This document shows, piece after piece, positions 2,756 through 43,400 of a DNA stretch of 44,171 nucleotides (position 1 is the first letter of the stretch; each line of letters begins with the position of its first letter). Under the pieces are notes generated by a model, which saw nothing but the letters and a program-made list of their open reading frames with translations, had not been told where the DNA came from and did not search any database. Source of the stretch: a virus; IMG/VR virus record IMGVR_UViG_3300033571_008549, positions 1 to 44,171 of that record; one strand, written 5' to 3'. The position numbers and the translations under genes were made by a program.

Positions 2756-2756
2756 C

Positions 2757-3411: not shown

Positions 3412-3426
3412 GACATTAGTTTTTAA

Positions 3427-3434: not shown

Positions 3435-3443
3435 ATACAAAAA

Positions 3444-4154: not shown

Positions 4155-4155
4155 T

Positions 4156-4746: not shown

Positions 4747-4940
4747 GTAAAAAAAGAACAGAATACTTATTGATTGCCTGTATATTAACTGGTGTATTTA
4801 CTGGATATTTTATAATTTCCACATTTATAGTAGATATATCATTTGGAAAATACTTATTAATTGAACTAATAATAAGCTTGTTGCATGAGTTGTATAACTA
4901 TACTAAAAGACAAGCTGTAAAACATATACACCATGAGTGA
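4743..4940 (+). CDS. Small two-helix membrane protein
   Basis: This 65-residue protein has two hydrophobic segments, roughly residues 7-30 (ending FIISTFIVDI) and 34-48 (LLIELIISLLHEL), with a basic N-terminus and a His/Lys-rich C-terminus. It would sit in the inner membrane with both ends probably cytoplasmic. It overlaps the previous gene by ATGA and the helicase start by eight bases. Function is unknown; small membrane proteins in phage early regions can be holin-like or act in exclusion, but location among replication genes does not favour lysis. Confidence 0.5.
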   Translation: MSKKRTEYLLIACILTGVFTGYFIISTFIVDISFGKYLLIELIISLLHELYNYTKRQAVKHIHHE

Positions 4941-24000: not shown

Positions 24001-27000
24001 CATTTGGTCAATACTTAGTTCTGCACCATTCGGTTCCCCATCTTTATCCGTTACTAAAGCAACAAGAGCAGATCTTTGACGGTAATACTCACTTAATTCT
24101 CTAACTGTATCAGCTTTACTATTTTTAGAACCTATCTCTCTTAACTGTTTGTATATCTCCTGAATTCTTTGTTGATACTCTGGAGTAGTAGCAATCTTTA
24201 AGTTCTTATCAAAAAACTTTTGAAGTTCATTATTGAATTCTTTCATTTTTTCAGGATCAGACTCATCATAGGTAATACCTTGTGAAGCCAACTCAACATT
24301 TACATAGTTGTCTAAATCTCTTTGGAATTTATTAGTATCTGTAATAAACTCATTAAACCCGGCAGATTTCTTTCTGTGGTTTAATCTTACTAATACTTTT
24401 TGCAGATCATCTCCTGTTTTAAAGTTACCAAAACTATCATACACATTATAAAGTTCATCATAGTCTCTCTTTGCAATTTGAGATTCTGTTACCTCATGAA
24501 TATCATCCATTTCAGTAAAAGGTCTTTTATTGTAGATACTCATTTGATCAAGTGCCTTTTGTCTTTCTAAGAAAGCTTGTGTAGCAATATCAGCAGGAAC
24601 TACAATTTCTGATTTAGTTGATGGATCATAAACTCTGTTATCCTGGAACCAGATTCTTTGTATATCATACACTTCTTTTTTATACTTTCTATGCATGTAT
24701 TTATCATTGAACTCCCAGATATCTTTTTGAGCTTTTCTAATAGCACTAACTTCTCCAACTTCTCTAGCTTTTTCTAAAGCATCATTCAGTCTACCAACTT
24801 CACTTCTCCAGTCTTTGAATTTATCAATTAAAGAAAGTACTTCAAACTCTTCATATTCACCTTTGTCATTCCTACTAGGAATTTTATCTGTAAACATCAT
24901 AAGTTTTGCAAGTTGACCTGTATCATTAGGATTGTATCCTGCAGCTTTAAGTTCTGGCAAAATAGTACTCATGAAATCATTCCATTCTCTGTAACTTTTA
25001 TTCTCTGCATTAGACAACTTTGATTTCATATATCTTACAAATGATCCCAATGGATCATCAATATTAGAGTAAGGAGTAATCATAGCAGACATAATACCTA
25101 AGTCTCCAGCTTTACCTTCTAGCAAGTCTGTTATTTTTTCCTTAGTGATTACTTTTGCAAAGTAGTCCTGTACAGCATCTAGTAGAGCTTTAGCAAATCT
25201 GGTTTCTCTTGGTAGTTTTAAATCTTTAATGTCAAATCTTCTAATATCTTTTGTATTCTCAATTTGTTCTGCAACCTGATTAATTTCATCTTCAGTAAAA
25301 TTATCAGCTTTAAGAATATTGTTTAGTTTCTCTTTAAGTGAGTTATTAATTGACTCATTCATGAATTCAGAATTCTCAACAATAAAGTCTTTCATGAATT
25401 CTTTCTCAAGTTTTCTTCCTTCAGTTATTGTGTTTCTTACTCTTTCACCAATTGATAATAGTTTCTTATTCAAACTGTTATCCGGTTCCATCTTAAGTGT
25501 ATCTTTAACTTCATCTAAGAAAGTATTTTGTCTTTCAAGAAACTGTTGGTAATATGCAAGTTTGGCCATACCTTCATTAGTAAGATGTTCATTGGTACTT
25601 TTCATCTCATTAATAATAGTCTGGATTCTTTTAGTAAATACTTCAATTTCACTAACACTATTTATAAAGGCATTAGCTCTAATTTTAAAATCAGTTTGCT
25701 GCTCTTCAATTTGTCTTAATACTTCTTCTGGATCTAATTGAGATAAGTTTGGATCTACAGTCTGTGAAGTCTGCAAGTTATCAATTAGATTTCTAAGAAT
25801 CCTCATCCCATCTTTTCCTTGAAGTTTTTCTTTAAGTTTATATGGACTATTCTTTAGTACACCTACCTGGAACAAAGCTTCTGTATAAAATCTATTAATA
25901 GCTTCTAAGAAGTCTTTAGCATCTGTATTACTCAAGTCATTTATAAACTCATCTACATCATTTTTAAACTCAGCATAATCACTTAATTCAAACTCTAGGT
26001 TTTCAATTACAAAGTCCTCTCCAAGAAGCATGTCTGTAAGTTCTTCTAGATCAGTTGTAGATTTAAGTTTTTTTAATTCAACTCTTCTGCCCATGATTCT
26101 ATTAATGATTTGTTTAATAGCATACATTAACAAATCCATAAAAGAGTTAAACTGAGCATCATCAGAAATAATATTATCTAGTTTATTCATAGCATCTTTT
26201 TCAAGAGCTTGTACTAAACATTCTTCTTTAAATCTGTCTGACTCAGGATCTAATTCGTCATACAAGTTCATTACTACTTGTTGAATTTCTTTACCCTCTG
26301 CAGTTGATATTAGTTTAAAGTATAAATTTTCAAATAAAGTTTTATTTTCTTTTGCAATACCCTTAATTAAAGGATGTCCAAACTCATGAATCAAGTTATC
26401 TAATGAAAACTTTCCTTCAATAAAGTAAACTTTGTTATTAAGATAAAAAGAAGCAGTGTTAGGTTTAAGAGGAGTTTTTGTATTAATTAGTAAATCTTCA
26501 GCAGCTTCTCTACTAATTACTTGATATTCCATTCCAAATGCATTCTTAAACTTTTCACCTAACTTTTGAGCAATCTCAAGAGCTCTGGCTTGTTTTATTC
26601 CAGCTTCATTTTTTGGAGACATCATGTACATTTGTTCCTCAACTGTTCTTGGTTCTGGTTGAAATGTACCTAGTTGTTTTTTCTCTTCAATTGCTCTATC
26701 AATATCACTGAGTACCTTACCATTTTCAATTGCTCTTTGAAGTTTAGCTGGTGCATCCAGCATTCCCTTTCTTCTTGTAACAATCCATGTATATTGATTA
26801 GAATTACCAACTGGAAAGTATGCAGCAAGATAATTAATTGCTATCCCTTTTCTAAAGTTGTTAGTGTTTTTCTTATCAATTGCTTGATTAAGTTTTATTT
26901 GAGTCTCTGTAAAGATTTCTCTTCTTACATTTACTCCCAACTCAGATTTAATCTCTGCAACATTCATCATACCCAATTCTTTTTTAACTGAGTTTGATTT

Positions 27001-27129
27001 CATGAATACAGAATATCCAGGAAACTCTTCATTGAAATAAGTATCAACAAGGTTTTTAATTTTTATTTCACCAAACACATTGGTAAGTCTTTTAATTTCT
27101 GGATCTGAAAGATTTAAACATGATGCCAT
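21043..27129 (-). CDS. Giant virion-type protein with zincin, LysM and membrane helix
   Basis: This 2,028-residue protein probably is packaged in the virion and injected. Near the N-terminus the HExxH motif HEFGH (248-252) sits in NLIHEFGHPL, and a downstream Glu-rich segment (KEECLVQALE, about 60 residues later) could hold the third zinc ligand, giving a zincin peptidase. Residues about 400-1150 are charged and largely helical, likely coiled coil. A LysM domain follows at about 1710-1755 (YEVVAGDTLESIAKQFNMSP ... PNDTLEEGRTLKI), implying peptidoglycan binding. Near the C-terminus, GVYLALLAIAVTMIFGY (1869-1885) is a membrane helix. The gene starts one base inside the stop of the 4,449-residue gene (TAATG). 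Family assignment beyond these elements is not possible; the resemblance is to crAss-like phage internal proteins and 'polyvalent' proteins. Confidence 0.8.
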   Translation of the reverse strand: MASCLNLSDPEIKRLTNVFGEIKIKNLVDTYFNEEFPGYSVFMKSNSVKKELGMMNVAEIKSELGVNVRREIFTETQIKLNQAIDKKNTNNFRKGIAINYLAAYFPVGNSNQYTWIVTRRKGMLDAPAKLQRAIENGKVLSDIDRAIEEKKQLGTFQPEPRTVEEQMYMMSPKNEAGIKQARALEIAQKLGEKFKNAFGMEYQVISREAAEDLLINTKTPLKPNTASFYLNNKVYFIEGKFSLDNLIHEFGHPLIKGIAKENKTLFENLYFKLISTAEGKEIQQVVMNLYDELDPESDRFKEECLVQALEKDAMNKLDNIISDDAQFNSFMDLLMYAIKQIINRIMGRRVELKKLKSTTDLEELTDMLLGEDFVIENLEFELSDYAEFKNDVDEFINDLSNTDAKDFLEAINRFYTEALFQVGVLKNSPYKLKEKLQGKDGMRILRNLIDNLQTSQTVDPNLSQLDPEEVLRQIEEQQTDFKIRANAFINSVSEIEVFTKRIQTIINEMKSTNEHLTNEGMAKLAYYQQFLERQNTFLDEVKDTLKMEPDNSLNKKLLSIGERVRNTITEGRKLEKEFMKDFIVENSEFMNESINNSLKEKLNNILKADNFTEDEINQVAEQIENTKDIRRFDIKDLKLPRETRFAKALLDAVQDYFAKVITKEKITDLLEGKAGDLGIMSAMITPYSNIDDPLGSFVRYMKSKLSNAENKSYREWNDFMSTILPELKAAGYNPNDTGQLAKLMMFTDKIPSRNDKGEYEEFEVLSLIDKFKDWRSEVGRLNDALEKAREVGEVSAIRKAQKDIWEFNDKYMHRKYKKEVYDIQRIWFQDNRVYDPSTKSEIVVPADIATQAFLERQKALDQMSIYNKRPFTEMDDIHEVTESQIAKRDYDELYNVYDSFGNFKTGDDLQKVLVRLNHRKKSAGFNEFITDTNKFQRDLDNYVNVELASQGITYDESDPEKMKEFNNELQKFFDKNLKIATTPEYQQRIQEIYKQLREIGSKNSKADTVRELSEYYRQRSALVALVTDKDGEPNGAELSIDQMRLLKSIEDKIVELNESFDKKTGLTVDQKLRMNQYETKIKEGQDLTSVENEDYERLLDVKNDLGISSLELTNLKMLFRELSELTNTTPTDSYLKTFNDVVGDTEIQQLLPDNTIGLGAVASITTETADEFINSTQINQIKAANPAFAEWFDRNHYSKSYFDKKGKQVTKFYRVKAWSVTRPGNRDFYVNTKIINPATGVEIEVPGIPISKYTYTRVKDQYRTIPRNADKSDYIGTIIDNKGRYLPREYAAGDPNSAYDNKYANEEYYQLKAENGVRFKLLEAYKKQYLKIQEDKPRESKLYLDMPRFRKKGNLEYLQSGETKANFGSKLEGIKGGIISVFKKDAADAEHRFNFDADSLLVDTDLQGEPITEIPVRGLYRIKTNQVSQDVLTATATYLHSLNEQQTLIEEEPVAKALKNILNDPANAIKQVDKVSKQASKARGKQVFIPKGKNKFRRDNQRADAYSFYIDRLFYGQGNSEFQSENVWVTKLANNLMGSASRSFIAMDITSALKNKLGMTFQKMVETAGGQYLNAVSAAQGRIKAFNATIELSSKGIYTKGPKTLNLQMMEQFDPITGKTKQEFGKSSSRTFVKDFIDGTWMYDSRRLMEVESGLQLFFGMMDHKKIDQIQPDGSVKQIKYVDAFELNSDNQMVLKPGINPEWGTMPINYEVVAGDTLESIAKQFNMSPEELKEKNKLPNDTLEEGRTLKIADSKLFNDFKLKIQGVGKKLNGLIGQEDSPQADKFLMFRLFSFYRKYAIPMFLNRFQFDTSKENFGGEIYDWDMGTTSKGYYISAFQAMYQTLKQGTKYWQIMSKEEKSSLKKVLAEGVYLALLAIAVTMIFGYDRGDEDRFEKMQKREDQYGAFGWLANHALYQLIMVKKENESFIPVPGIGLDEWLEFTNSTTIVTGPTLDLYSKIMMDLWYMITGDEKGIYKSDVGPYDWQQKDEDGTYDYKLWNDLSGLFGIKGKNYAPIWAIRKNESFENLN

Positions 27130-30100
27130 TACTGTCCTAGTTTACATTTTTTATAATACTCTAATATTTCTTCAATCTTTAATTCAGGGTTCTTTAAAAT
27201 TTCACTGTTGAAGAAATTACTAAATTCTACAGTTTTTAAAATATCTGAATCAGATTGTTCAAATGTTTTTGTTTCTTCTGCTTCTACTGTTTCAGGAAAC
27301 AATTCATCTACAGTGATAATTTTGTCTTTACCTTTTGCTGTCAATGCATAAACTGTAAAGTTATCATATTTTTTTGAAAGAAGGTATTCCAAAAATGGTC
27401 TATCTGTTGAACTGTTTCCAAAAATAAATTTAGCATTCTTTGACATGTACACATCTAGTGCTTGTTTAACTGGAGCATCAAGAGGTCTATCTTTTAACGA
27501 GTAGTTTCTAGATAACATAATAACTGGACTTTGAATATTATCCAATGGAGCAACTAATCTAGCTCTACCTTTAGTTTGAGTTATTACTCCTGATTTTAAA
27601 TCCTCTGGTAGTAAGTCTTTAATTTTTTTCTGTACTACCCTAAGAGTTGTTTGGGCTGGACTAAAAGATTCTATTGATTCTACTAGAGCTCCATCAGCAA
27701 GGCCTCTCATCTTTCTATCTGCTGTAGTACCATCTTCTCCAAATACTTTTTGATACTCACCCATATCTACAAACTTATCAGATATATCTGCTTCTGTTGA
27801 TTCAACATATTCATTTGGAATATATCTGTTATAATCCCAAATATCTTTAATTCTTCCATAAGAAAGTTTAGCAGCAAATGTATTTCTCCAATCTGAAATT
27901 CTTAAAGTTATTCCAGATTTAAGTTGCATTTCTTTATATTTTGTGTTCTCTGGAGTTACTTCATCATAACTAAAAATATCAATTGCTTTAGCACCAATCT
28001 TTCCTGTGTGTGAATCAGTATTAGCAATATACTTACTAACTACTTTACCTTTAGAATCAACAATATCATAGTCAATAACTTTTCTACGAGACCCTTGAAA
28101 CTTAACATTTTCAATAGTGTATCCTTCTGGAGCTATCAACCATGTATCTGTTGCTAATCCGCCTTCTTCATCAAGTATTTCTCTTACATAAATACTATTA
28201 GGATACATACTTTCAAACACCTTTTTACCTTTAGCTCTTGTTAAGAAAGAAACCCAGTCAAGATCATGTACTTGATTTTCATTAGGTCTGTATATTGTAC
28301 CTTGTTCTGAAGCCGTTGTTGAACCAGCTAACATAAAATTTTCAGCCATCTTATCTACTATAGCAGTTGCAAAGGGGTCTGAATCTAGTGCGTCTTGAAG
28401 ATTTACAGGTACTACGGCTTTTCCTTCTGCACCTGGTTTATATTTACCGGCAGTAATTAAAGCTTTGTTTCTAGTCAATACTCCATCAACAATAACACCT
28501 ATGTTCTTATTGATTTTTTGAACTCTAACTTTGTTTATTACATTGAACAAGTAATCAATAATCAATTTGATTTTATCAATTAATGATTTTGGCATCTCTG
28601 TATTAGTTTTCTTATGCAGTTGTTCTGAGATTAGTTCTCCAATTACATTAAGAATTTCATCTTTAGATGCTGTTCTATATCTACTTTGTTTTCTTAAAGC
28701 TTCATATGTTTCAGTTACCAATGGATTATGCTGAAGCATGAAGGCAATAAACTTACCAGCAATGTTAGGAAGATCTTCACTATTGTCTTGTTGAACATAT
28801 GCTATCTTGTTAAGTATATCTGCAACAGCTAGAGTATCCATTCCTAGTTTCTCTTTGATGTCTGTGTATTCAAACTTAATACCAAAGGATGCTAAGTAGT
28901 TAACCAAAAGTTTATTTAATTCATTTTCAGTCTCAGGAACTATTCTGTTCAAAGCATTAGTACCAATTGGATCAATATCTACTTTACTAAAGTCATAAAG
29001 CTTAGCAAGATTTTTTCTTAGATATTTTTTAATCAGTTTTCTTTTAGGAGGGTTTCTTTTATTATAAACTTCTCCTCTAGCTTCCATTGCTTTTATTGCT
29101 TCATTTAATGATTCTCTAGATTGATTTAACCATGAATCTAAGTTTCTAATTACATTATAAATAATGTGAGGAGGTACTTTCAAATCATTAAGATTATCTC
29201 TTAACATATCAATATCTGCATTCTCTTCAAATTTGGTAAGTTGTGTCCAAATTACCTTGTATGCAGAAATTGCTAAACCTCTTTCACTTATTTTTTTAAT
29301 TTCATCACTGGTAACTTCTTCAATAGGTTTACCAAATAATCTCATTGAGATACCTGGATTTGATGCATACATATACTTATCCATATTTTCTCCTTTGAAA
29401 TTATAGTTAAATGTTGCATTACTCACTTGATAACCACTTCTCTTATATTTATCTGTAACATCTTTTGGTGCAAAACCAATTACATCAAATTGTTTAGAGA
29501 TATAAGGAATTGTTTCTGCAAGAAGTTCTTTACTTGATGGAGATGAACTCATATTAGAAACAAACACATTCATACGTGGTTCAAATGTTCCAAATATATA
29601 AGTGTCTTTATATTTAATTACATTACTGTTTTTAACATACCCAACAAAATTTTTGTAAGGTGTTGCAGAAGTAGCTCTTTCTTTGTTTCTTCCCATTAAG
29701 TTTACATAGTTCTGATATAGTTTCATAAGAAATGCTTCACTAGGTTCTTCACCTAATACATCAGATAATCTATTTCTAACCATTCCGGAAGGCTCAACTT
29801 CATCTATTGTAGTATCAAATTCAATAACAGTACCTACAGGAGTTTCTTTTGGTTTCTCTTGTAAATCTATTTCAAGAATTGGAACACTTAACACTTCTTC
29901 TTTAGCAAGTTTGTTTGTGTTACTTGTACTATTAAACTCTAATGGATTTTGTACATAGTTTTTAAAGTACTCTTTACCTTTAAATAAACTTTCAAATATT
30001 GTATCAAAAGTATTCAAGTTAAGATTTCTGTTTATAAAGTTTATGGATGCATTCTCAATTACAAGAAGAAACTGATCATAAGGAAGAACTTTATTTATAC

Positions 30101-33100
30101 CGTATTTACTATATCCAACACCATTCTGATAGATAGACATAATAGGAAGTATTTTAAATACCTCACTGATATAATTATTAGTTTCTACATCATCTTTATC
30201 TATAGCTTTTTGAACATTTGGATTGGCAAGATCTTCTAAATTAAGATTGTATGATTCAGCCAAATCTCCTTTTGCTAATGCTTTATTACTCAGTGTTAAA
30301 ATCTTTTCAGTTCCTCTTAAGTTAGCTTCTGACAATTGAAGTAAAACAGGATACTTATCTTTTAAATGAGGGTATTCTTGTATTACACTTTGTACAAGTT
30401 TTGTAAATGAATATCCTTCAGTTCCTACAATTGCTTTTTGATTAAAGCTATTAATTAAAGCTCTTTGATTTAAGAAAGTTCCATAATCTCTAGACTTTAA
30501 CCATCCAGTTTTTGGAGTCATTGAAACTTGAGGGAATTTATTTTTTATAAACTCTCTTTCCATTACAAATCTAAGGTAACTAGAGAAAGTATCAAACGGA
30601 TCATCCTGATCTCTAAATGGTGTAAGTCCTACATTCTTATATGACTCAGTACTTGCAGAACTATCTAAATATGTTTTATCAGTAAATTGTTTTCTAATAG
30701 CTGCTTCATTAATATAGAATGTATTGTTTTGAAATAGAATTCCATTTGTAAGTTCAGCTTTAGTATTAACCACTTCACTACCTCTATAAATTTCAGGTAT
30801 ATTTACTACTTGTCCTTGAGCATTGACCATGTTAGTCATATAGTTCTGGAAAATGTAATTAACAACTGAGTTTTTATATTCATTTATAAATTGTCTTACA
30901 CCATCCTGTCCTTTACCATACTTTTTAGTAATGCTTGAAGCATATGCAGAAATAGCATAAGTTACATAGTCATTAATCTTTTTGTTATTTCTCAGTTTGA
31001 ATAACGGCTCAAGTAAGTCAAGTACAATTTGATTATCAAAGAATGAATTTAAAATAGATTCATTTCTTAATTTATCAACTAGTGCAGGATCAATTTTTGA
31101 TAAGTCTGATAGATCTTCTAAAGCAACAGTTCTCTCAACAATTTCTTGAATTGTTTTAGATGTTTTAGTATCTGGATTAGCTTCTCTTTTTAATGCTTGA
31201 ATACCTTTAATTTGTTTTTCAATTTCAATAAAATGCAAGAACATATCTAATGATTTTAAATCAATAGGATATCCTCCAGCAAGTCTATTTCTCATGTCTT
31301 GTGAATCAAAGGTTCCTGTATTTGCAAGTGAAGCTGCAGTATAATAATTATTATTTGTTGTTAATGATGAAGCTGGTGTGTATAGATTAATATACTTTTG
31401 AAGATCTCCATCATACTGTCTTATAGCTTTAATATGATTTATACCTTTATTTCCTTTAGATAATGCATTATCAATACCCTCTTTAATTGCAGTACCTGTC
31501 ATTACTTTGCTTAACTCAACAAGCTCACCATCTTTTTTAATCAAATATTTTAATTGATATTTTTGAGTGTCAATTAAATCATCTGCAGTGTTTTTGATAT
31601 TAACTACATTAACTGCATTATAGATTGGTTGAGAAATTTCACTATTTACCAGTTTACTTATTGCAAGATTAGATGCTTCATATTTAATGTATGATTCAGC
31701 TTGAGGTGCTTGACCACTTAATTTACCATATACACTTCCTAAGATTTTTTGTTGTTTAACATATTCTCTTACCAAAGGTTGTGATACAAAATTGATTGCT
31801 TCATTTTTTGGAACACCAGCCTTAATCAAATAAGTCAATACAGGAATAACTTGTGTGTTTCCTTGAATAAAGAATACCCATGCATCTTTCTCAACATCCA
31901 CAAGACCATTCATCATTTGAGAGTATAGATCACTAACAGCATCCCCTTCAGCATTTAGAACATTTGATAATGATATGTTACCTTGTGGAGTTGTGTTATG
32001 ATTAAGTCTTAATCTCATATCCATGTTCTTCCCGTACTTATCCTCTACATATCTTTGTCTTCCTTCATCAAAGTAAACAGGTTTATATGTTAGAGGCATC
32101 TTAGCACCTAATGCATTAAATACCGGGCTTAATGAGTTCTCAATTGCTACAATACCTAAACCAGCTTTACCAACCATGTTTACATCATGTTTGTGCAAGT
32201 TGTACCCTACTTCAAGAACTCTTGTTGGACTAATTACTTTTTTAGCTTTACCTTTTTTATCAGTAATAAATCTATCACCTTCCTCATGTTCATTCTCAAA
32301 CTTATTATAGTCTACTACATCTGACTCAAGATCATCAGCAATGTCTTTTAATAAATAAGTTCCATTTGGTCTAACCAGGTTAGCATAGTTTTCAGGAAGT
32401 TCAAGAATACTTCTAATTGAAGTAATAAGATTGTTCTCTAATACCTTTTTTCGTTCTTCAATCAATCTTAATATCTGTTCTCTCTTCTTTGGATCATCAG
32501 ATTTTTTAATATTGTCAATTAAAGTTTTAAGACTTTTGTTTGTAAACTTAGTGTCATTTATTCTAAACTCACCATTCTCATTAATGCTTGGCATAAATGT
32601 GGTTAATTTATCAACGTCAAAGTCAGCTCCAGATTTTGCAACAATCTCAGATGGTGGTATAATAATATTACCTGCTGCAGGATTTAAGAAATGGTGTACT
32701 TCCATAAACTCCATTGAGTTTAATCCTTGTACTGGTATTCTAACTGCAGTTAATGTTACAGATTTTCTATTATTTCCTGTATTCAACCAATCCTCATCTT
32801 TAATAGCTTCATTAAGTCTATCTAAACTTGCATCAAAGTTCAATGAACCATCTTCATTTAAAACCTCAATAAGATTATTATCTGGATGTTTTACTTTAAA
32901 TAAGTTTTGGAAATCACCTTGAAGAGCAATAGCAACTTTCATTGCGGATGTATTACCTTCTTCATTATTGTAGAAAGGTAAGTTATTAGAACCTAAGTAT
33001 TTTCTTACTTCTTCATCTGTGGCACCTGTAAACTTAGAACCTTGATTCCAAAGTTTATTAGACATACCACTAGATACTTGTACTAATGCTTCACCTTTTA

Positions 33101-36100
33101 CTTTTTGTTTAACAAGTCTTTTCTCAATAAGAGATACTAAAATCTTTTCAATTTCATCAGCCTCTAAATGTAAAGACAAATCAGTTTTAACTGTGTTATC
33201 TTCATTTACATTTACAAACTTAATATGGTGTTCTGGTAAAGCTCTTCTTCCTAGTTCATTTCTTACAACTTGTAAGAAGTCACCAAGATTACCAATATAC
33301 TTACCATTCTTATATTCATATCCTATCTCCTCAAGTAACTGAGTTTTTAAGATATCCGTATAATCATCTACTGCATTTTCATATGCTTGAGCTGCTCCAG
33401 CTACATTAGGATTATTGATAATACCTTGTTCATATAATCCTTCAAGAATAAGTTTTCTTAACTGAGTAGAGAATACTGTTTTACCTTTATACTTATTTGG
33501 TACTGCAGTTACATTCTTAAGGTATTCAAGATACACAACATTTGGAGTGAATTCAATATCTGATTTAAGATTTTTTTGTTCCTCTTCATCTTCATAAATC
33601 TGATCAGGTTTACCGTCTTTTGTAATACTTGCAACTTTAGAACCTGTTTGGAATGTTGCATATTGAATACCAGACTTCAACATTTGGTGATGTAAAGATT
33701 CAAGATCAGAACCTTTTATAACTGAAGGAATCAATGGCATCAATGCAAATTTATGCATAGAATTTACAGGTAATCCTGTATTTGCTAAGTGTCCAAAGTT
33801 TTGTAATTTGTACACAGGAAAAAACTCAGTGATATCTGACATATCAACATCTTTACCTTGTATAATTTTTTGGAATAAAGCTTCTTGTTTATCAGACCAA
33901 TCATTCTCAAGATATCTTAAAGATCTGTAGGCATCAAAAGTTAAGTAACCTTGACCATCAGCTTCTTCCATTTTCTCATAGGTATCCATTTCAATGTCTA
34001 CTCTACGTTTTACTTCATTAGTTAAAGCTTCTCCTTTATAACCATTACTTAATCTTCTAGTGTAATCAGCTGTAAGACCTTTTCTAATTTGATCTCTGTA
34101 TACTGATTTTCTATTTATATCTCTTAGAATAGCTGTATTAAATGTACCATCATAATTCCAGTTTAATACACTATTTCCAAACTGAGGTAATTTTGATAAT
34201 GTATTAGCATAAGAAGTATTTTTTACAAAACCATTAATAAACTTTCTTGCATATACATCAGTTAAGAAACCACGGCCCCCAGATGTAGAACCTGTATTTC
34301 TTTTATGCATTTCTTCTTTTGCATGGTTATATTGTACAATGTCACCATACATTAAACTTGCAGTTTCAAAATTGTGTATCCAAGAGTTATAAGTAAATGC
34401 TTTTACTAGTGCTGTTTTAGCATCAACCTTACTCATACCAATTGCAGTAAGTATATTTAATAATTTAGGATCAACATAGTTTACTTCATTAAGATAGTTT
34501 TCATTTTTTACTGTCTGTCCATCAAAATAATTTTTGACCTCATTTGACAATATTTCTTTGAAATCTGGATTAGTTTCAATGTAATCTTTGATGGTACCTG
34601 TTTTGATATTATTGTAGATAAATTCTTTGGTATCATCAGTCAACACATTATCAAATGCTGTAAACACTTGACCTGCATATACTTTTGGATCACCATTAGA
34701 ATCATATTCTAAAACTCTATTATAACCAACATAGTTTTTATAGGTATCAATATTGTTATTGAATTTTTGGATTCTTTCAAGTTCAGCATCCATGTAGTCA
34801 ATAAAAAATTCATCTATTGAGTATTGTTCTGCATTTCCGTTTGGAGCAAACATATCAATATCAATATACAAATGTCCATCTTCTCCTTTACCCATTCCTC
34901 CAATAATGTCACCTTCAACTCTAACACCAAAGGATGATGATTTAGAAGCATGTCTCATAAATTCTTGTAGACCACCTTTTAACATCATGTGCATCTCTTG
35001 TAAGAATTTACTATAAACATCTAATGAAGTTGTGTTAGCACCTTCTGAACCTTCAGCAATCTGAGTTCCGGATACATAGTTTAACTGTAAACTCTTTCCA
35101 TCCCTCTTCTCAAAACTGTTAGTATCAATAGCAAAAATACTATTAAGAATCTTAGATCTTAGAGTAAAGGAATTCACTTCAGGATTAAGATAACTCATAT
35201 ACTGCAGCTCGTCTGTTCCCCACAAATCTTGTAATTTCTTAGCTTTATTAATACCATGCACTATCATACTCACAGTATTGTCCTCAATATGTTCAGAAAC
35301 TAAATTTCTTTCTGCATTAAGTACACTAAAGTTTGAAGAGTCAGCACCATATTTACCTTGTAACTCTGCAAATCTTTCAATGATATTTTTTTGTTTAAAC
35401 TCTTTATCAGAAATAACACCAGCAGGAATACCATTCTTGAGTACACCAACAGGATCAAGTTTAAAATCACCAATAGCTCTTAACTGTTTACTTGTTACTT
35501 TATTCTTTGGAATATTAGATTCTTTCTCAAGTTCAGCTAATTCTTTAATTGCTTTAAAAGTATACTCTAAACTATAGTATTTTTTGTTTGCCGTTAATTC
35601 ATTTTTAATAACTGATAATTCATCCATGTATAGACCAATAGCTCTTGCAAAATCAAATGCTTTTGTACTATCAAATTCTCCATTATCTTTTCTTGCAAAC
35701 TTTTCAGCAACTTTTTGAAGATCTAAAGTATTGATATTGTTAACTCTATTAACATAAGAATTATCTGTATCAGCTTTAAATTTATTCTGGAATTTTCTAA
35801 GGACACTAGAAATTTCAATAGAAGCTTCAGTAACTTCTAACTCATAACCTTTACCTTCTTTAAATGCCGTAAGTTGAATGTATGTAATCCTAGGTTTTTT
35901 AAAGTCTTGCCAAAAAGCAGAACTAATTTTAAACTCAGAACTATCCAATAACTTTGTAGGATCCGGAAGTTTATAATCAAGTAACTGTTGTAATTCAGGA
36001 AAGGTAAGAGCAGCTGTCTTAAGTTCATTATACATTTCAACTCTGTCCTTAATACCACCAATAGCTCTGGTTACATTATTCCATGTTGTTGTAAAATCAG

Positions 36101-39100
36101 CAAGTTCTTTAAACCCAAGTTTATTATAAACATAGTTTTTACCACTTTTCTTAAATAAACTTTTTAAAATGTACAGTGTTTCTTTACTTGCAAGTTCTTG
36201 AAGTGACTTATCATTAACAACTTTATCACCATACCTTTCACTTGTTTGTGCTTCTTCTGCTACTGTTTTATTTTCTTCATCATCTGCATAGTCAATCTCA
36301 ATAAACTTCTGGCGTACAATATCAAATGTACTATTTTCAATATGATATTTAACTAAACCTTTTGTTTCATCACCAAAGTTTTCTAAACCAAGTTTTAGAA
36401 TTCTTGCAACATCTTCTAACTGGTCTACTTTTACAGCATCATTTTCAGTTTTTGCAGTCTCAAGTTCAGTTAAAACAGCATTGTATCTTTTTTGTAGTTC
36501 TTCTTGAACCATTTCATAAGCTACCTTTTTGTTTCTTGCATCAGTAAGAATTTTTACTGCACCAGCTTTACTTACAATTTTATCATCATTTTGTTGTGCA
36601 GCAAGGGCAACACTATCAGCATAGACTTTATCAATTGTATCTGAAATAATAGAGTCAATACTATTTACTAATTCAGTAGAGTCTTGAAAGTTTAATACTT
36701 CAGCTTTTTTATCTTCTACTGAACTAACACCTCTGTCAAGCATACTAAACATAGCATTGTCAACATTTGGCTTATACTTGTTTAATATACTTGGATCCCC
36801 ACTGGCCATGTATAAGTTATCATATAGTTCTTTGACAGCAGGTACAAGTGTTACTTCTCCGGCTACTTCCTCTCTCTTGAAGTTCTTATTAAAAAGTCCT
36901 TTAATAAAGTTTAATATTCTTCTAAATAAGCTATTTCTAGTTGGAGCACCTTTTGTTGCTTTTGGATTTAAAATATAACTTCTAAAATCTTCAGCTAACA
37001 TTTCTTCTAGTTCAAAGAAAGACTTATCTATATTAGGTTGATTACCTTTTGCATCTTTAAAGTTTTTAACTTCATTATACAATTTAGTTTTCTCTTCTTT
37101 AGTTAAAAATAATTGAGAGAATCCATGCCATGCTTCATGGTAAACATCAACCATAGTACCACCAATCTCTGTATTGATATTAATACTGGTATCAGCTAAG
37201 GTAGCTCCATTAATAATGAAACTTGCAAATGAATCTGAGTTAACAATGTTTCCTATTTGAGTAAGAGAAATAATTTTAGATAACGGGCTCTTAGACCACC
37301 ATTCTTGAGCAGCTTGTACTTGTTCTTTAGTTACACCATTTGGCAACTTAGCACTTCTATCCCATTGAAATCTATTGAATATTTTACCTACTTCAGTATT
37401 TTCAGTCTCTGGCCCTTTTGTATCTGTTGGTTGAATACCTTCTTCTACATTTGGAACAGTCGGAAAGTTAACACTTGACTCACCAATATTACTTTTGGGT
37501 ACTTCTGTTTCAACACTAGTAGTTGGTTGAGTAGATTTACTCCAAGTACCAATCAACTGACCATCAACTGTAATTTCAGAGTAACTGTAACCTTTAGCTT
37601 CCATATTAGCATAAAGTCTTTTCTCTCCTGTGTTATAATTACTAGCATTAGTATAGGCTTTGTTATCTGTAAGAATTGTTGCACCAGCTTCTACAGCTTT
37701 AATAGCTTCTTTAATAGTTTTATTTTGTTGGGTTTTTTGTTGTTCTTCAGTACCTCTTTTACCTCCAATTGATACAAATATTACATCATTATCAGAATAG
37801 TTACCTGTATTAGCAAATGATCCTGCTTGTTGTCTATATGTTTCTGTTGAACTTCCAGTAATACCTTCTCCAAATCCTATAAACTGAGTAGCAATACTTG
37901 CTTTAGAAATTGCTTTTTTATCAGCAGCTTGTATAGGTGTAACTGTAAAAATATTTTTTTTATCAAAGTTTTTACTACTAATAGATAATTGAGTAATATT
38001 AAATCTAGCTTTAAAAGCTTGTTCATTTTTAACATTACCTTCATTAGTTCTAAACTCCCAATCTTTTGGTGCAAGAACTGTAGTTGGAATACCTAATTTT
38101 ATACCTGCTTTAGCACCAGCTTCATCAAATCCAGTTTGACCACCACTTCTTATTAATGTAATTTTGTTTTTAAGGTTTGGTGAATTAACTATACCATATA
38201 ATAAATCATAAGTAAACTTATCAACTTCTTCTTGAGTACGACCTTTCATGTCATATATACCGTTCCCTGCAATATTTAAAGTTTTTGCATTTACTGTATT
38301 TAAGGCTTTTACAATATTTTCAATTGCCTTTGACATGCTGTCTTTACTAATAGCATTCAAAGGTATACCATTTGTTTCTATTGTTCTATAAACCTTACCT
38401 TGTTCTTTTACAGATTTTTTAGTAAGTTTTTCCCCAGGAGTTTCAAAGTTATCTCCTAAATGTATTGTTGCATCAGCAGAAGCATTGATTCTAGTTCTAG
38501 CTGGATAACCACCAGTTTGATTTTCTTCAAAATTAATTGTATTATTTTGAGTAGGTAAACCATTATCAACTTTTTCCTTAGCCTTATTCAGAGATTCTGT
38601 AAATGCTGTATTAGGTCTAAACATAATATAAGAGTTGAATACTCCTAAACTATTCTCAGGAGTAAACACTACATCAGCAGGGAACTGTTTAATAAAATCA
38701 GTATAATTTGCTCTTACAAACTTACCAGTAGCCGCATTATAATCTAAAAATGTTTTACCATTAAGCTTAGGTTCAAACTTCATTTTAGAAGATTGAATTT
38801 TTTCTTTATCATAATAAGCATTGGTAAGTACTTCTTTTATTTTATCCTTTGCATCAGCTGCAGATAAGTCTAACTTAATAGGGGCAAATGCTTTATTTAA
38901 CTCATCTAAGTTTACTTTTTGATTATTTTCTTGAGCTTTTTTTTGTGCTTTTGCTTTTAACAGTATTGTTTTATCATATGTGTAAGGTGTATAAAAGAAA
39001 GATATCACCTGTGATGATTGGTTAAAATTAATTTTATGTCTTTGAACTTCAGGATCTAAATTAACAGTAAACTGATTAACATATATAAATTTATTAGCAT

Positions 39101-40478
39101 CAGATATATTAGGGTTGCTCAAAACAGTAGCTATCTTATCAATGATAGTTTCATCCATGTTAGGTCTGTTTACAGCAAACTCTCTATCATTAATAGTAAC
39201 TACAGCCTGTGATTTACCAAAACCATCTCGAGGTGACTTAATAATATCTAAAGTTTTATATACATCATTTGATACACCTGGGATATTAATCAATTCATTA
39301 AAAGGAATAGTCTTTCTTACATAACCAAAGTTTAATCCATTACTAATTCCTGTTATACTATATTGCCCAAGTTTACCACTAAGGATATCTTGTTTCATTC
39401 CATAAAGAATCTTAAACTGTTCTTGTTGTTCAGCATCAAGTTCTTTAAGTAACTCATCAGTTGTCCTACCTTGTTTAGCCAACATTTCTTCAAACTCTTC
39501 TGTAGATAATTCTGAATCAGCAATTTGATTGTCAAGTAATTGTCTTGGTGTAATAATCTGGTCAGATAATCCATAGATATCAGTTACTCTAAATCTTCCA
39601 TTTTCAAATCGAGTATCTCTTAAGTACTGATATACAGGTTTACCAGTTTTATCAATATGCCCATCTTCATCAAACATTACAAATTGATTAGTAGCTTTAT
39701 CAGTAAGAACCATAACAATCATTTCATTTGCTTCAGTAACTCCTGCTTTACCAGTACGGTATTTTTTGAATGTAGCACTTTTAATAATTCTATCAACAGA
39801 ATACTTATCCAACCAAGTTTGTCTCATACCAGTCAACTTTGCAGGTGTCAAAACTAAAGTTACACCTTCATAGACTGCTTCTGACATTCCGTTAAAATCA
39901 TCTGGTAATGCTTTCTTGATATTAAAAAGAGTATTGTAAATTCTATCTTTTGATTTATCAATTTTTTCAATTTCAAACTCTCCTTTTTCAGAAGGTTTCT
40001 TAGCTTCAAACATTTGCATAGTTAAGCCAAAAGGACTGTAGGCACCTAGTCTTACATCTGCTCTTTGAACTGGTTTCTTTTCATTTTGGTCATTTAATTC
40101 AATTCCTTTTTGAATAGCAATAAGAGTCTTTAATGTTTCAGGATCTGTTTGAGGTTTAAAAATTTCAAAGACATTATCAATACCAGTATCAGGATCAAGA
40201 AACTTATCTCTTAAATCCAAAAGATCAACAGTCTTATCAATCTTTACACCTCGCATAAAAGGTTTAGAAATAATAATACCTATAATACTTGGAAGTTGTT
40301 GTACAAATAATGCACCTGTTACTGGATCATTATCTTCATCATACACATCAAATATGGTTTGCATAAATGAATTAGGATTAAATACTTCACCATTTTTCAT
40401 AGCTTCATTTATTCCTGAGACTGTAGTAACATACAGGTTCTTAATATCGTTTTCTGTTAAAACACAACTTGTTTTCAT
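27129..40478 (-). CDS. 4,449-residue RNA polymerase-polyvalent fusion protein
   Basis: Domains seen in order. About 725-820: a YpsA/SLOG-like Rossmann domain (NIAGNGIYD, then LIRSGGQTGFDEAG with S778-G783, then GIPTTVLAPKDW). About 870-985: a module SFANTGNYSDNDVIFVS with AVEAGATILTDN, often joined to the former in giant phage proteins. HEAWH at 1114-1118 with EEMLAEDF 40 residues later: a zincin peptidase. About 2130-2700: RNA polymerase core, with DGQGYLTFDAYRSL, HKFALMPLIPS (~2241), a conserved Lys in TGSKV (2280), RIPVQG (2580) and the metal-binding ADFDVDKL (Asp2619, 2621, 2623). About 4040-4170: a nucleotidyltransferase-like fold (LAGST at 4050, then HDLDW at 4071-4075). About 4320-4385: a second SLOG-like segment (SRNYS, FGNSSTDRPFLEYL). 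Other parts are unassigned. Start ATGA overlaps the upstream gene. RNA polymerase is secure by motif; its role as virion polymerase is by analogy to phi14:2 gp66. Confidence 0.85.
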   Translation of the reverse strand: MKTSCVLTENDIKNLYVTTVSGINEAMKNGEVFNPNSFMQTIFDVYDEDNDPVTGALFVQQLPSIIGIIISKPFMRGVKIDKTVDLLDLRDKFLDPDTGIDNVFEIFKPQTDPETLKTLIAIQKGIELNDQNEKKPVQRADVRLGAYSPFGLTMQMFEAKKPSEKGEFEIEKIDKSKDRIYNTLFNIKKALPDDFNGMSEAVYEGVTLVLTPAKLTGMRQTWLDKYSVDRIIKSATFKKYRTGKAGVTEANEMIVMVLTDKATNQFVMFDEDGHIDKTGKPVYQYLRDTRFENGRFRVTDIYGLSDQIITPRQLLDNQIADSELSTEEFEEMLAKQGRTTDELLKELDAEQQEQFKILYGMKQDILSGKLGQYSITGISNGLNFGYVRKTIPFNELINIPGVSNDVYKTLDIIKSPRDGFGKSQAVVTINDREFAVNRPNMDETIIDKIATVLSNPNISDANKFIYVNQFTVNLDPEVQRHKINFNQSSQVISFFYTPYTYDKTILLKAKAQKKAQENNQKVNLDELNKAFAPIKLDLSAADAKDKIKEVLTNAYYDKEKIQSSKMKFEPKLNGKTFLDYNAATGKFVRANYTDFIKQFPADVVFTPENSLGVFNSYIMFRPNTAFTESLNKAKEKVDNGLPTQNNTINFEENQTGGYPARTRINASADATIHLGDNFETPGEKLTKKSVKEQGKVYRTIETNGIPLNAISKDSMSKAIENIVKALNTVNAKTLNIAGNGIYDMKGRTQEEVDKFTYDLLYGIVNSPNLKNKITLIRSGGQTGFDEAGAKAGIKLGIPTTVLAPKDWEFRTNEGNVKNEQAFKARFNITQLSISSKNFDKKNIFTVTPIQAADKKAISKASIATQFIGFGEGITGSSTETYRQQAGSFANTGNYSDNDVIFVSIGGKRGTEEQQKTQQNKTIKEAIKAVEAGATILTDNKAYTNASNYNTGEKRLYANMEAKGYSYSEITVDGQLIGTWSKSTQPTTSVETEVPKSNIGESSVNFPTVPNVEEGIQPTDTKGPETENTEVGKIFNRFQWDRSAKLPNGVTKEQVQAAQEWWSKSPLSKIISLTQIGNIVNSDSFASFIINGATLADTSININTEIGGTMVDVYHEAWHGFSQLFLTKEEKTKLYNEVKNFKDAKGNQPNIDKSFFELEEMLAEDFRSYILNPKATKGAPTRNSLFRRILNFIKGLFNKNFKREEVAGEVTLVPAVKELYDNLYMASGDPSILNKYKPNVDNAMFSMLDRGVSSVEDKKAEVLNFQDSTELVNSIDSIISDTIDKVYADSVALAAQQNDDKIVSKAGAVKILTDARNKKVAYEMVQEELQKRYNAVLTELETAKTENDAVKVDQLEDVARILKLGLENFGDETKGLVKYHIENSTFDIVRQKFIEIDYADDEENKTVAEEAQTSERYGDKVVNDKSLQELASKETLYILKSLFKKSGKNYVYNKLGFKELADFTTTWNNVTRAIGGIKDRVEMYNELKTAALTFPELQQLLDYKLPDPTKLLDSSEFKISSAFWQDFKKPRITYIQLTAFKEGKGYELEVTEASIEISSVLRKFQNKFKADTDNSYVNRVNNINTLDLQKVAEKFARKDNGEFDSTKAFDFARAIGLYMDELSVIKNELTANKKYYSLEYTFKAIKELAELEKESNIPKNKVTSKQLRAIGDFKLDPVGVLKNGIPAGVISDKEFKQKNIIERFAELQGKYGADSSNFSVLNAERNLVSEHIEDNTVSMIVHGINKAKKLQDLWGTDELQYMSYLNPEVNSFTLRSKILNSIFAIDTNSFEKRDGKSLQLNYVSGTQIAEGSEGANTTSLDVYSKFLQEMHMMLKGGLQEFMRHASKSSSFGVRVEGDIIGGMGKGEDGHLYIDIDMFAPNGNAEQYSIDEFFIDYMDAELERIQKFNNNIDTYKNYVGYNRVLEYDSNGDPKVYAGQVFTAFDNVLTDDTKEFIYNNIKTGTIKDYIETNPDFKEILSNEVKNYFDGQTVKNENYLNEVNYVDPKLLNILTAIGMSKVDAKTALVKAFTYNSWIHNFETASLMYGDIVQYNHAKEEMHKRNTGSTSGGRGFLTDVYARKFINGFVKNTSYANTLSKLPQFGNSVLNWNYDGTFNTAILRDINRKSVYRDQIRKGLTADYTRRLSNGYKGEALTNEVKRRVDIEMDTYEKMEEADGQGYLTFDAYRSLRYLENDWSDKQEALFQKIIQGKDVDMSDITEFFPVYKLQNFGHLANTGLPVNSMHKFALMPLIPSVIKGSDLESLHHQMLKSGIQYATFQTGSKVASITKDGKPDQIYEDEEEQKNLKSDIEFTPNVVYLEYLKNVTAVPNKYKGKTVFSTQLRKLILEGLYEQGIINNPNVAGAAQAYENAVDDYTDILKTQLLEEIGYEYKNGKYIGNLGDFLQVVRNELGRRALPEHHIKFVNVNEDNTVKTDLSLHLEADEIEKILVSLIEKRLVKQKVKGEALVQVSSGMSNKLWNQGSKFTGATDEEVRKYLGSNNLPFYNNEEGNTSAMKVAIALQGDFQNLFKVKHPDNNLIEVLNEDGSLNFDASLDRLNEAIKDEDWLNTGNNRKSVTLTAVRIPVQGLNSMEFMEVHHFLNPAAGNIIIPPSEIVAKSGADFDVDKLTTFMPSINENGEFRINDTKFTNKSLKTLIDNIKKSDDPKKREQILRLIEERKKVLENNLITSIRSILELPENYANLVRPNGTYLLKDIADDLESDVVDYNKFENEHEEGDRFITDKKGKAKKVISPTRVLEVGYNLHKHDVNMVGKAGLGIVAIENSLSPVFNALGAKMPLTYKPVYFDEGRQRYVEDKYGKNMDMRLRLNHNTTPQGNISLSNVLNAEGDAVSDLYSQMMNGLVDVEKDAWVFFIQGNTQVIPVLTYLIKAGVPKNEAINFVSQPLVREYVKQQKILGSVYGKLSGQAPQAESYIKYEASNLAISKLVNSEISQPIYNAVNVVNIKNTADDLIDTQKYQLKYLIKKDGELVELSKVMTGTAIKEGIDNALSKGNKGINHIKAIRQYDGDLQKYINLYTPASSLTTNNNYYTAASLANTGTFDSQDMRNRLAGGYPIDLKSLDMFLHFIEIEKQIKGIQALKREANPDTKTSKTIQEIVERTVALEDLSDLSKIDPALVDKLRNESILNSFFDNQIVLDLLEPLFKLRNNKKINDYVTYAISAYASSITKKYGKGQDGVRQFINEYKNSVVNYIFQNYMTNMVNAQGQVVNIPEIYRGSEVVNTKAELTNGILFQNNTFYINEAAIRKQFTDKTYLDSSASTESYKNVGLTPFRDQDDPFDTFSSYLRFVMEREFIKNKFPQVSMTPKTGWLKSRDYGTFLNQRALINSFNQKAIVGTEGYSFTKLVQSVIQEYPHLKDKYPVLLQLSEANLRGTEKILTLSNKALAKGDLAESYNLNLEDLANPNVQKAIDKDDVETNNYISEVFKILPIMSIYQNGVGYSKYGINKVLPYDQFLLVIENASINFINRNLNLNTFDTIFESLFKGKEYFKNYVQNPLEFNSTSNTNKLAKEEVLSVPILEIDLQEKPKETPVGTVIEFDTTIDEVEPSGMVRNRLSDVLGEEPSEAFLMKLYQNYVNLMGRNKERATSATPYKNFVGYVKNSNVIKYKDTYIFGTFEPRMNVFVSNMSSSPSSKELLAETIPYISKQFDVIGFAPKDVTDKYKRSGYQVSNATFNYNFKGENMDKYMYASNPGISMRLFGKPIEEVTSDEIKKISERGLAISAYKVIWTQLTKFEENADIDMLRDNLNDLKVPPHIIYNVIRNLDSWLNQSRESLNEAIKAMEARGEVYNKRNPPKRKLIKKYLRKNLAKLYDFSKVDIDPIGTNALNRIVPETENELNKLLVNYLASFGIKFEYTDIKEKLGMDTLAVADILNKIAYVQQDNSEDLPNIAGKFIAFMLQHNPLVTETYEALRKQSRYRTASKDEILNVIGELISEQLHKKTNTEMPKSLIDKIKLIIDYLFNVINKVRVQKINKNIGVIVDGVLTRNKALITAGKYKPGAEGKAVVPVNLQDALDSDPFATAIVDKMAENFMLAGSTTASEQGTIYRPNENQVHDLDWVSFLTRAKGKKVFESMYPNSIYVREILDEEGGLATDTWLIAPEGYTIENVKFQGSRRKVIDYDIVDSKGKVVSKYIANTDSHTGKIGAKAIDIFSYDEVTPENTKYKEMQLKSGITLRISDWRNTFAAKLSYGRIKDIWDYNRYIPNEYVESTEADISDKFVDMGEYQKVFGEDGTTADRKMRGLADGALVESIESFSPAQTTLRVVQKKIKDLLPEDLKSGVITQTKGRARLVAPLDNIQSPVIMLSRNYSLKDRPLDAPVKQALDVYMSKNAKFIFGNSSTDRPFLEYLLSKKYDNFTVYALTAKGKDKIITVDELFPETVEAEETKTFEQSDSDILKTVEFSNFFNSEILKNPELKIEEILEYYKKCKLGQ

Positions 40479-43400
40479 GTATTTGATTTGTTATTGACAC
40501 AACTTTCTTCTCTTTCCTTCTTTTGTTTAGCTAAAGCATCTTTAAAACTTAGTGCTTTACCTTCTTGATCCAATTGAGTAGTGTCAGTATTATTTAAAAA
40601 GTTATCTGTAACTGATACACTTTCATCTGCCTTCTGTTTTGTTTCACTGTCTGCTACAGTGTTGATTTTAGACTTAATGTTTTCAACTTCCATATTAGTA
40701 AAATAATCATTTATTTCCGATAAACCAATTGTTTTAGAAGAACCTTTATGGCTAAACTTAACTTTTCCATCTTTTACTTCTTTAACAACTAATTCTGTAT
40801 TCATTTCTGCAAATATTTGATCTGCATTTCTGGTCTTAAAGATAGTGTTTTTTACAATAAGCTTGTCTCCAACTTTGATATTAGACTCAGTTAACTTGAC
40901 ATTTTCAGGTTTTGACAATTCAGCTTTCTTATCAGTCATTAATCTTTGCATTACTTCTAAGTCAACAGGATTAATTAATTGAGCAACTGCTTTCTTGTTT
41001 AACTCTCTTCTAAAGTTATTAAATGCAGCTAAATCATTTATTCCTTTTAGCTCTTCCACTACATCAGCTACAGATGTTGTTTTTAATTCTGTTGTAGGTG
41101 TTGTAGGACTACCAAACGTAAGGCTGTTTACAAATTTTTCTTTTCCAGTTAAAACAGTAGGTGGTTCACTTTCTGCACCAGGTAAAGGTGCTCCATCTCC
41201 AGGAGGTATACCTTCAACATCATTTAAAGGTCCTGGAGATTGTGTAAGTAAATCATATTTAATAACTAAATCTTTAACATCTTTTGCTTCTGTTGCTGTT
41301 TTTGCAGTTTCAATATCTTCAGTTGACATAACTTTAATCATGTCATTATTAAACCCAAGATTATTTAACTTAGCTCTTGTAGCTGCAGATAATTCTGAAC
41401 CAACAGGTATTGTTCCTGCAACAGGAATAAGTTGATCTATGTCATCTTTAACAGAATTTTTATCAAGACTTACAATGAATCTTCCTGGGGCCAATAATCT
41501 TTTCTCTCCTGGTTTTAATTTTGTTTTATCAGAAGGTTTAGAAACAGATGTAATTAAAGCTGTCTCATCATTATATGTAATCTGAATTGGTAAGATAGCA
41601 GTCTTAACATCAATACCTGGGAACATGTTTTCTAGTAATCTAGCATATGCTGCTTGTTGATATGTGTTTTCAATTCTTGCATTATGATAAGGACTAGTAG
41701 TATCATTGTATCCTTCCCATTTTTCTTTTTTACCTGTTTTAACATCAATGATAACAAACTTACCAGTTTGATCAACTAAAAGTAAATCAATCTCACCGGC
41801 AATACCAGCATTCTCATCATATACTCTTAAGTCTTCAGAAACCATATAGTACTGACCAGTGTCAACCATTTCTTTAATCTTAGCAAGATAACCTGCTTCT
41901 CCAAACAATTGATTGTAAGCTTCTTCAGTTATTGAAGCAGGTTCAAATTTAGGAACCTTTCCGGCAAATAAATCTTTAATTGATTGATCAATATAGTTAC
42001 CTGCTTTTTCTGCTTCCTCATATGTTCTTTCTGCAATAATAGGTTTTAATTCTTCTTTCAATGCATTAAATTTATCAAGTGGTTCTTCAGTTGATAAAGT
42101 TGTAAAAACATAATTTGTTTTTTTATTTTGGTTAAGATCATTATATGTTTTTTCTAAACTCTTAACCTCATTTTCTTGAGAAACAACACCATCAATACTT
42201 ATGATATGTTTACCACTTACAATAGCTCCATTACTTATTTCAAAAACATATCTATTGTCAAACTTACCTTCTATTGTAGGAGCAACTGCAGTAACAATAC
42301 CATTTTGAATTGGTGTTGAACTATTACTTCTAGAGATATAACCTCTATTCATAAAGTTCATCAAGTCAGATTTTACTTCTTTAAGAGTAGAAGTACTGAT
42401 GCCATCACCTTTTACTTGTTTAAGTTTTAATTTTTCAATAAAATCATCTACTAAAGCTTCAGTGGGTTCTGTTGCATTTTTATTCTTATCCATGAATTCA
42501 GTTACGGCATCATCAAATGCTGTATTTACTTTCTTCATATACTTATAAGAATACTCATTACCTAAGAATCTTTGAATAGCTCTAGTAACTCTTTCCATTG
42601 GTTTATCATTTACAACATATGTATTGTCATAACTGATATTAAATTGCATTTTTCTAAGTTCTTCAATTTGTTCAATTGCTCTTTTCATTTCTGGAGAGTA
42701 TCCAGCTTGAGCTCTTGTTTTAATTAACATCTCAATTTTATTCTTGATAGCTTTTAACTCAGAAACTTTATTGATGTTTTCAAAACTTGGTTTTAGAACT
42801 TTATTCAAATTCTCAATTATTGCATCAAGTGCATAAGTCAGTGTTCTTAGTTTAGGAATTGTTTCATAATTCTCAGTGTTTACACGTTTACCATTCAACA
42901 TAAAACTAAAGTCTGATACTTCTGCTATTTGTTGATTAGCCTCATTAATTTTTGAAGTTTTGTTATACTCATCAATCAAATCTTTTACTGTAATACTTGT
43001 TCTCATGTATTCAGTAAACATGTTTTGTTTTTGTTCTTCTGTTGCATTTTCAGTAACAATACTTGGTAAACCTTCATAGTATTTATCAAAAGCATCTAGA
43101 ATAGCTGCATGAAGTTCTGGAGCTCTTTCTTTGAGTTCATCAATGTCAGTAGAAGTTGATAGTGGTTCTACTACAACCTCTGTTTTTTCAGTTGTAGGTT
43201 TAATTCTATACTCATCAATGATCTCAGTTCTTAATGCATTGTATTTGTCAATTATAGTTTGAAGTTCAGTAGGATCTGGTTTCATTACATTAGTAAATCT
43301 TACAGCACTTGTAAAATCAATATCATCATTTTCCTCAACAACTTCACCATTAACATCATCATACTTTAGTATACCATTATCATTATAGTAGATTATTGGG

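Follow-up and report, generated by a model that had tools for sequence, protein, structure and literature searches.

The window analysed here (44,171 nucleotides, the whole of IMG/VR record IMGVR_UViG_3300033571_008549) raises the question of what a single reading frame of 4,449 codons encodes, and whether it is one gene at all. The frame occupies positions 27129-40478 of the minus strand, as do all window features described below at their own coordinates, and contains no internal stop codon, as originally predicted. ORFs were called mechanically with translation table 11, and the IMG/VR loci used for comparison are fragments. The original prediction had named a misassembly of several genes as a finding that would overturn it, and the window does derive from a metagenomic contig, the end of which cuts the upstream protein. 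However, an independent contig (3300034061_002572, 122,643 bp; locus L002), the sole close relative found, carries a collinear ORF of 4,115 aa in an identical gene order, with 74% identity to the window protein over residues 967-4448 and 62% over residues 1-644, and ~119 complete homologous ORFs, the longest of 5,107 aa, are present in IMG/VR loci. As the collinear ORF lies in a separate contig, the 4,449-aa frame was accepted as genuine, and the vanishingly improbable alternative of an assembly artefact fusing several genes was excluded on the strength of these relatives.

The size of the protein is ordinary for crAss-like polymerases. The view that known members are about half as long proved wrong, as the polymerases of cr1_1, cr10_1, ctbg_1 and ctcc615 have 4,551, 4,460, 4,407 and 4,253 aa, respectively, and a review gives lengths of up to ~6000 aa (PMC10136315). 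With named phages equalling or surpassing 4,449 aa, size was dropped as a point of novelty. Protein length is set by where the block of giant proteins is cut into genes, and the phi14:2 polymerase (2,180 aa) stands at the short end of the range because the phi14:2 genes are split. The fused polymerases of cr1_1, cr10_1, ctbg_1, ctcc615 and crAss002 resemble the window protein in length (4,200-4,550 aa) and in the DFDxD motif, that of cr10_1 also in having a SLOG domain, but they are fused at other places.

The identity of the central part of the protein was assessed by sequence profiles and structure prediction. A tblastn search with residues 1901-3300 matched 78 records of crAss-like phages, in many of which the annotation is RNA polymerase. 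The core can be aligned among Steigviridae, Suoliviridae and Intestiviridae, and the motifs K..G..Q, RIPTQG..S and G[SA]DFDxDK are conserved in the alignment. The predicted DFDVD motif (residues 2619-2623; 32610-32624) does lie mid-protein, preceded by ~2,600 residues and followed by 1,826, and D2619, D2621 and D2623 are invariant in an alignment of 58 sequences. A profile (A5) built from 58 sequences had a single match in the PDB, 6vr4_A, which is the phi14:2 polymerase (gp66 in the structure paper, gp077 in KC821624), with an E value of 1e-91 over 898 of 920 positions. This structure was reached only by the family profile; a phmmer search of the PDB with the whole protein gave no match, and whole-protein searches of Pfam, PHROGs, NCBIfam and PADLOC returned nothing besides cpYpsA/phrog_10774. 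The AlphaFold2 (AF2) model of residues 1990-2960 (31599-34511) had a pLDDT of 89.3 and a pTM of 0.87, and Foldseek matched it to 6vr4 first (E 6e-29, probability 1.00) and then to the RNAi polymerase QDE-1. The expected likeness of residues 2100-2750 to the phi14:2 polymerase was thus recovered by both profile and predicted fold, and the double-psi beta-barrel (DPBB) polymerase architecture is supported by the match of the model as a whole fold.

The window protein shares with phi14:2 the same ~900-residue catalytic core and DFDxD motif, but core identity is ~18-22%, and the phi14:2 protein is far shorter and has no SLOG domain. The core matches a DPBB polymerase and not the T7-like polymerase domain of the N4-like phages (Schitoviridae). 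Judged by its homology to phi14:2 with DFDxD, its predicted DPBB fold and its place in a block of giant proteins, the segment at residues 1990-2960 is a Crassvirales virion RNA polymerase (vRNAP). A separate observation concerns cr108_1 (MT774385, L004:19824-20115), in which the polymerase gene is split exactly at the active-site motif (GSD|xDxD) by ~290 bases in an intron-like arrangement.

The Crassvirales transcription block consists of several large multidomain proteins (PMC7886860), and the neighbours of the polymerase fit such a block, in which the 4,449-aa polypeptide is the middle of three proteins. The upstream giant (40475-44170; 1,231 aa in the window, 5' end open) includes a PD-(D/E)XK nuclease domain (41534-42058; Pfam PF12705 and a local HMM). 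The downstream, gp49-like giant (21043-27129; 2,028 aa) includes a LysM domain (21877-22002; Pfam PF01476, E 6e-12) and, at residues 1753-1984, the gp49-like domain conserved in Crassvirales (21178-21873; local HMM). The latter belongs to a protein of its own in the window and to a fused polymerase polypeptide in ctbg_1 and ctcc615. In phi14:2, as in the window, a giant protein lies on either side of the polymerase, and the gp47-gp50-gp49 set of crAss001 likewise comprises three giants. Mass spectrometry detected gp47, gp49 and gp50 in crAss001 virions (PMC10172136), and all three block proteins of phi14:2 are virion-located according to their annotation. By analogy with these relatives, the 4,449-aa protein is probably packaged in the virion and injected with the DNA. 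In the close relative (locus L189), a 1,133-aa Cys-free protein (minus strand, 2522-5920 of the reverse complement) precedes the first giant and is possibly also ejected cargo.

Flanking parts of the polymerase protein had been predicted to include peptidase and nucleotidyltransferase-like elements. The former prediction stands in part, as a zincin-like region (36870-37343) with HEAWH at residue 1114 is homologous to a region of zincin-bearing crAss-like giants, but has no Pfam match. The zincin-like region is found within the polymerase protein in the window, cr1_1, cr10_1 and cr108_1, whereas in the crAss001 group it is in the upstream protein. Giant injected polymerases with a zincin HExxH domain are known from the N4 virion RNA polymerase and the polyvalent proteins (PMC5512222, PMC12633501), and the combination of SLOG, zincin motif and polymerase in the window protein fits, in its architecture, the polyvalent type (Iyer et al. 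2017). The N4 protein differs in its T7-like catalytic domain and in being a single unsplit chain. The C-terminal 970 aa of the window polymerase protein (27132-30041) are common only to L002 among the loci compared and gave no phage match, no Pfam match and no recognised domain. The nucleotidyltransferase-like element was not upheld there, having no Pfam match, and a second SLOG-like element considered in this segment was set aside as unconfirmed for the same reason.

The amino acid composition of the block is unusual in one respect. Only two of the 4,449 residues of the polymerase protein are cysteine, and they lie at its two ends, Cys5 (40464-40466) and Cys4445 (27144-27146). In the upstream giant the only Cys is residue 1224 (40499-40501), which stands seven residues from the end, and in the complete 2,091-aa version of this protein in the close relative the sole Cys is residue 2089. 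The downstream giant begins MASC, with Cys4 (27118-27120) facing the junction; it has one further Cys, Cys304, and a Cys-free C-terminus. The same arrangement was found at every junction in phi14:2, in which the sole Cys of gp078 (1,797 aa) is its last residue, 1797, the gp077 polymerase has Cys only at 3 and 2179, and gp076 (1,421 aa) has Cys only at 3. The crAss001 proteins follow it as well, with Cys at 2339 only in gp47, at 5, 1334 and 2404 in gp50, and at 5 only in gp49. Overlapping start and stop codons were rejected as the source of the terminal Cys, since gp47 of crAss001 obeys the rule although it is encoded on the strand opposite to gp50 and gp49, unlike in the window; moreover, the Cys positions differ from case to case by a few codons, and ordinary genes are without such Cys. 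Closure of one protein from N- to C-terminus was also rejected, as the first and last proteins have just one terminal Cys each. The annotation of crAss002 gp33 (MN917146, L187:6343) probably places its start 32 codons too early, and an internal MSC start would agree with the cysteine rule.

The generality of the pattern was examined in 130 dereplicated vRNAPs and 191 junctions between consecutive separate giants. The bodies of the 130 polymerases include 44 Cys in 442,542 residues (0.01%), as compared with 0.95% in the other proteins of the window and 0.93% in 82 annotated ordinary proteins used as controls. Cys is present on both sides of 176 junctions, on neither side of 10 and on one side only of five; among the controls, an N-terminal Cys occurs in 3/82 and a C-terminal one in 9/82. 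The free C-termini of the last proteins have none (0/68). Distance from the end varies (3-6 residues at the N-terminus, 1-8 at the C-terminus), and no motif surrounds the Cys. Among the five discordant junctions, the start is misassigned in L033, the frame begins ~200 bases late in L035, the upstream ORF in L020 is a small cysteine-rich gene and no giant, and the upstream Cys lies 18 residues from the end in L133 and 31 in L179. Among junctions with Cys on neither side, L019, L089 and L149 look like fragments or frame breaks, and some others involve small proteins free of Cys that precede fused forms. L147 is apparently a true double absence, its upstream zincin giant (2,044 aa) being Cys-free and its polymerase lacking an N-terminal Cys.

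As junctions share descent, their count overstates their independence, and changes of block architecture were therefore given more weight. Fusion of the polymerase with the gp49-like protein (ctbg_1, ctcc615, crAss002) is accompanied by loss of the C-terminal Cys, and fusion on the N-terminal side by loss of the N-terminal Cys (cr1_1, cr10_1 and 14/17 IMG/VR cases without an upstream giant). Where an extra protein of 169-655 aa is located between the polymerase and the last giant, it bears Cys at its two ends in 12/12 loci (L031, L035, L037, L039, L041, L045, L046, L130, L132, L135, L143 and L173), a set tested after the rule had been formulated. The N4 vRNAP, which is one unsplit chain, shares the avoidance of Cys, with none in 3,500 aa. 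The word cysteine does not occur in the crassvirus virion papers PMC10172136 and PMC10136315, and the terminal-cysteine rule at block junctions looks new; an earlier remark may exist in the phi14:2 structure literature.

The distribution of Cys suggests that the junctions are sites of disulfide bonding, which would serve packaging or ejection. By extension from crAss001 and phi14:2, the polymerase protein would be a late product that is packaged into the capsid, leaves it through the tail together with the DNA and then transcribes the early genes. Passage through the tail would demand at least partial unfolding of the giants, from which Cys has been purged; such avoidance fits threading through the crAss001 tail, in which there are constrictions under 50 Å (PMC10172136). 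Paired Cys confined to the junctions fit end-to-end coupling, in which Cys5 would face the C-terminal Cys of the upstream PD-(D/E)XK protein and Cys4445 would face Cys4 of the downstream gp49-like protein. The separate polypeptides may thus be joined head to tail in the virion, like railway carriages, to form one chain, with fixed order and 1:1:1 stoichiometry, which would be threaded out and have its bonds reduced in the host cytoplasm. Families with fused genes would reach the same end by peptide bonds, and have lost the cysteines. Interchain disulfides have been reported elsewhere in the crAss001 virion (PMC10172136).

Several findings bear on this proposal. The cytoplasm of Bacteroidota is reducing, and the bond would therefore have to form late, in the virion. 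Catalysis does not depend on coupling, since the phi14:2 polymerase shows activity in vitro on its own (review PMC10136315). The L147 junction, the distant upstream Cys in L179 and the one or a few internal Cys in some members (ctcc615 17, ctbg_1 8) count against coupling. The complete account of the block, namely a catalytic vRNAP member, terminal disulfide coupling, ejection and exchangeable modules (see below), nevertheless appears to us somewhat likelier to be right than wrong.

The terminal Cys could also be read without reference to threading, as residues that join or stabilise a folded polymerase complex through a disulfide or a metal site at a subunit interface. An identical pattern would be expected if the split ends adjoin in the complex, as after fission of one ancestral chain, and fused and split versions do alternate within the order. 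However, a fixed interface accounts poorly for the variable distance of the Cys from the ends and the absence of a surrounding motif, while those of the small extra proteins that have 169-289 aa and Cys at both ends are better suited to a link in a chain. The exclusion of Cys from the rest of the chains, total in the N4 vRNAP, points instead to a constraint of transport, and we consider the folded-interface explanation unlikely. A further alternative, that the Cys at facing ends have nothing to do with each other and serve, for example, as a signal for packaging, through binding to the portal or to the cargo protein gp45, or as a processing tag, seems to us quite improbable. Cargo proteins do need to be recruited to the portal region (PMC10172136), and gp45 has Cys at 390 and 398, but if the Cys were a general tag, the first protein should have one at its free N-terminus as well, and the last protein at its free C-terminus, and the latter terminus is without Cys throughout. 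The presence of Cys follows the junctions and not the proteins.

The third flanking element of the original prediction, a SLOG-like domain, is real. Residues 646-833 (37980-38543) match Pfam PF12694 (cpYpsA) with 31.6 bits against a gathering cutoff of 26.2 and keep the nucleotide-binding motif as GGQTGFDEAG (pattern GGQTGxDEAG), and their AF2 model (pLDDT 88) matches the structure 3imk with a Z score of 8.7. The fold and GGQTG motif are those of cpYpsA/SLOG proteins such as the ‘putative molybdenum carrier’ of ICP1. In the non-crAss phages met in our searches these are small separate genes, whereas the module in the window is embedded in a virion polymerase.

Comparison with relatives indicates that this module is mobile. 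Residues 645-966 are missing from L002, where a short unrelated linker takes their place. At the DNA level the module has sharp-edged matches in L014 (94% identity), L015 and L016 (92%), L017 (86%) and L018 (79%). In L015-L018 the SLOG lies C-terminal to the core, and the remaining gene is only ~64-77% identical to that of the window where alignable. The window SLOG nests among C-terminal copies in a tree, and its identity to the SLOGs that occupy the equivalent N-terminal site in other phages is only 27-34%. PhiCrAssBcn1, 2, 3, 20 and 25 have a SLOG, but PhiCrAssBcn24, in which the polymerase is otherwise 99.7% identical, does not; in cr10_1 it is at the C-terminus. Hence, the SLOG module has been exchanged among phages and has shifted its place within the polymerase protein, an observation that looks new. 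The insertion in PhiCrAssBcn1 relative to PhiCrAssBcn24 (L010:5993-6640 versus L009) is flanked by a short imperfect repeat, LSPAFEAP / LSNAFDTPRIS, possibly a trace of entry or exit.

A second mobile module at residues 855-956 (37611-37916), defined by a local HMM, is present in 10 other vRNAPs, C-terminal to the core in nine of them, and is absent from L002; searches with it gave only a weak match, to a Vibrio phage. The C-terminal tails of relatives contain Pfam NADAR, 2OG-Fe(II) oxygenase (AlkB-like), DUF7831, ART and SF1 helicase domains, of which the NADAR, AlkB-like and DUF7831 modules show variation like that of the SLOG. The SF1 helicase (AAA_30/PIF1/UvrD_C_2) was seen in 11/84 scanned polymerase tails, for example L045:6376-12297, and RNase H and DprA-like domains in single cases. 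The exchangeable modules are Cys-free. Viral domains of the SLOG and NADAR types are described as typically standalone, and the processing of ADP-ribose signals of immunity has been proposed as their role (PMC9503650). No description of their fusion to a virion polymerase was found in the literature examined.

The linkers that flank the core house exchangeable modules, SLOG and the second domain here and NADAR, AlkB-like, DUF7831 and SF1 helicase domains in relatives. Such modules would be delivered in finished form as infection begins, and their probable task is to deal with immune signals of the NAD/ADP-ribose type or with damaged nucleic acid. An anti-defence role, made likelier by the swappable SLOG, NADAR and AlkB-like modules, is plausible, and the SLOG may instead bind something unrelated to defence. 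The giant frame might also be an ordinary Crassvirales virion polymerase in which the SLOG insertion is an inert passenger. Homologues of like size are common, and the module is lacking in the closest relative and in most PhiCrAssBcn isolates. However, an inert passenger would hardly be expected to retain the nucleotide-binding motif, to recur at different places in at least three lineages alongside NADAR and AlkB-like modules, or to be free of Cys like the chain that carries it, and this reading is a doubtful, if real, possibility. The wider proposal, that the Crassvirales giants form a covalent head-to-tail train which is ejected in order, uncoupled by reduction and bears hopping, exchangeable anti-immunity modules, has in our estimate an even chance of being correct.

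For both the N4 vRNAP (PMC12633501) and crAss001 (PMC10172136), the sorting of giant proteins, the upkeep of their stoichiometry and their passage through a narrow tail have been stated to be open questions. The cysteine rule predicts which residues should be bonded, and is therefore directly testable in cultured phages for which purified virions and mass spectra already exist. If it is correct, abundant gut viruses would assemble and take apart a cargo chain of several proteins by a means not recognised before. The SLOG, NADAR and AlkB-like modules would, in turn, make the virion polymerase a delivery platform for counter-defences that precede the expression of any phage gene.
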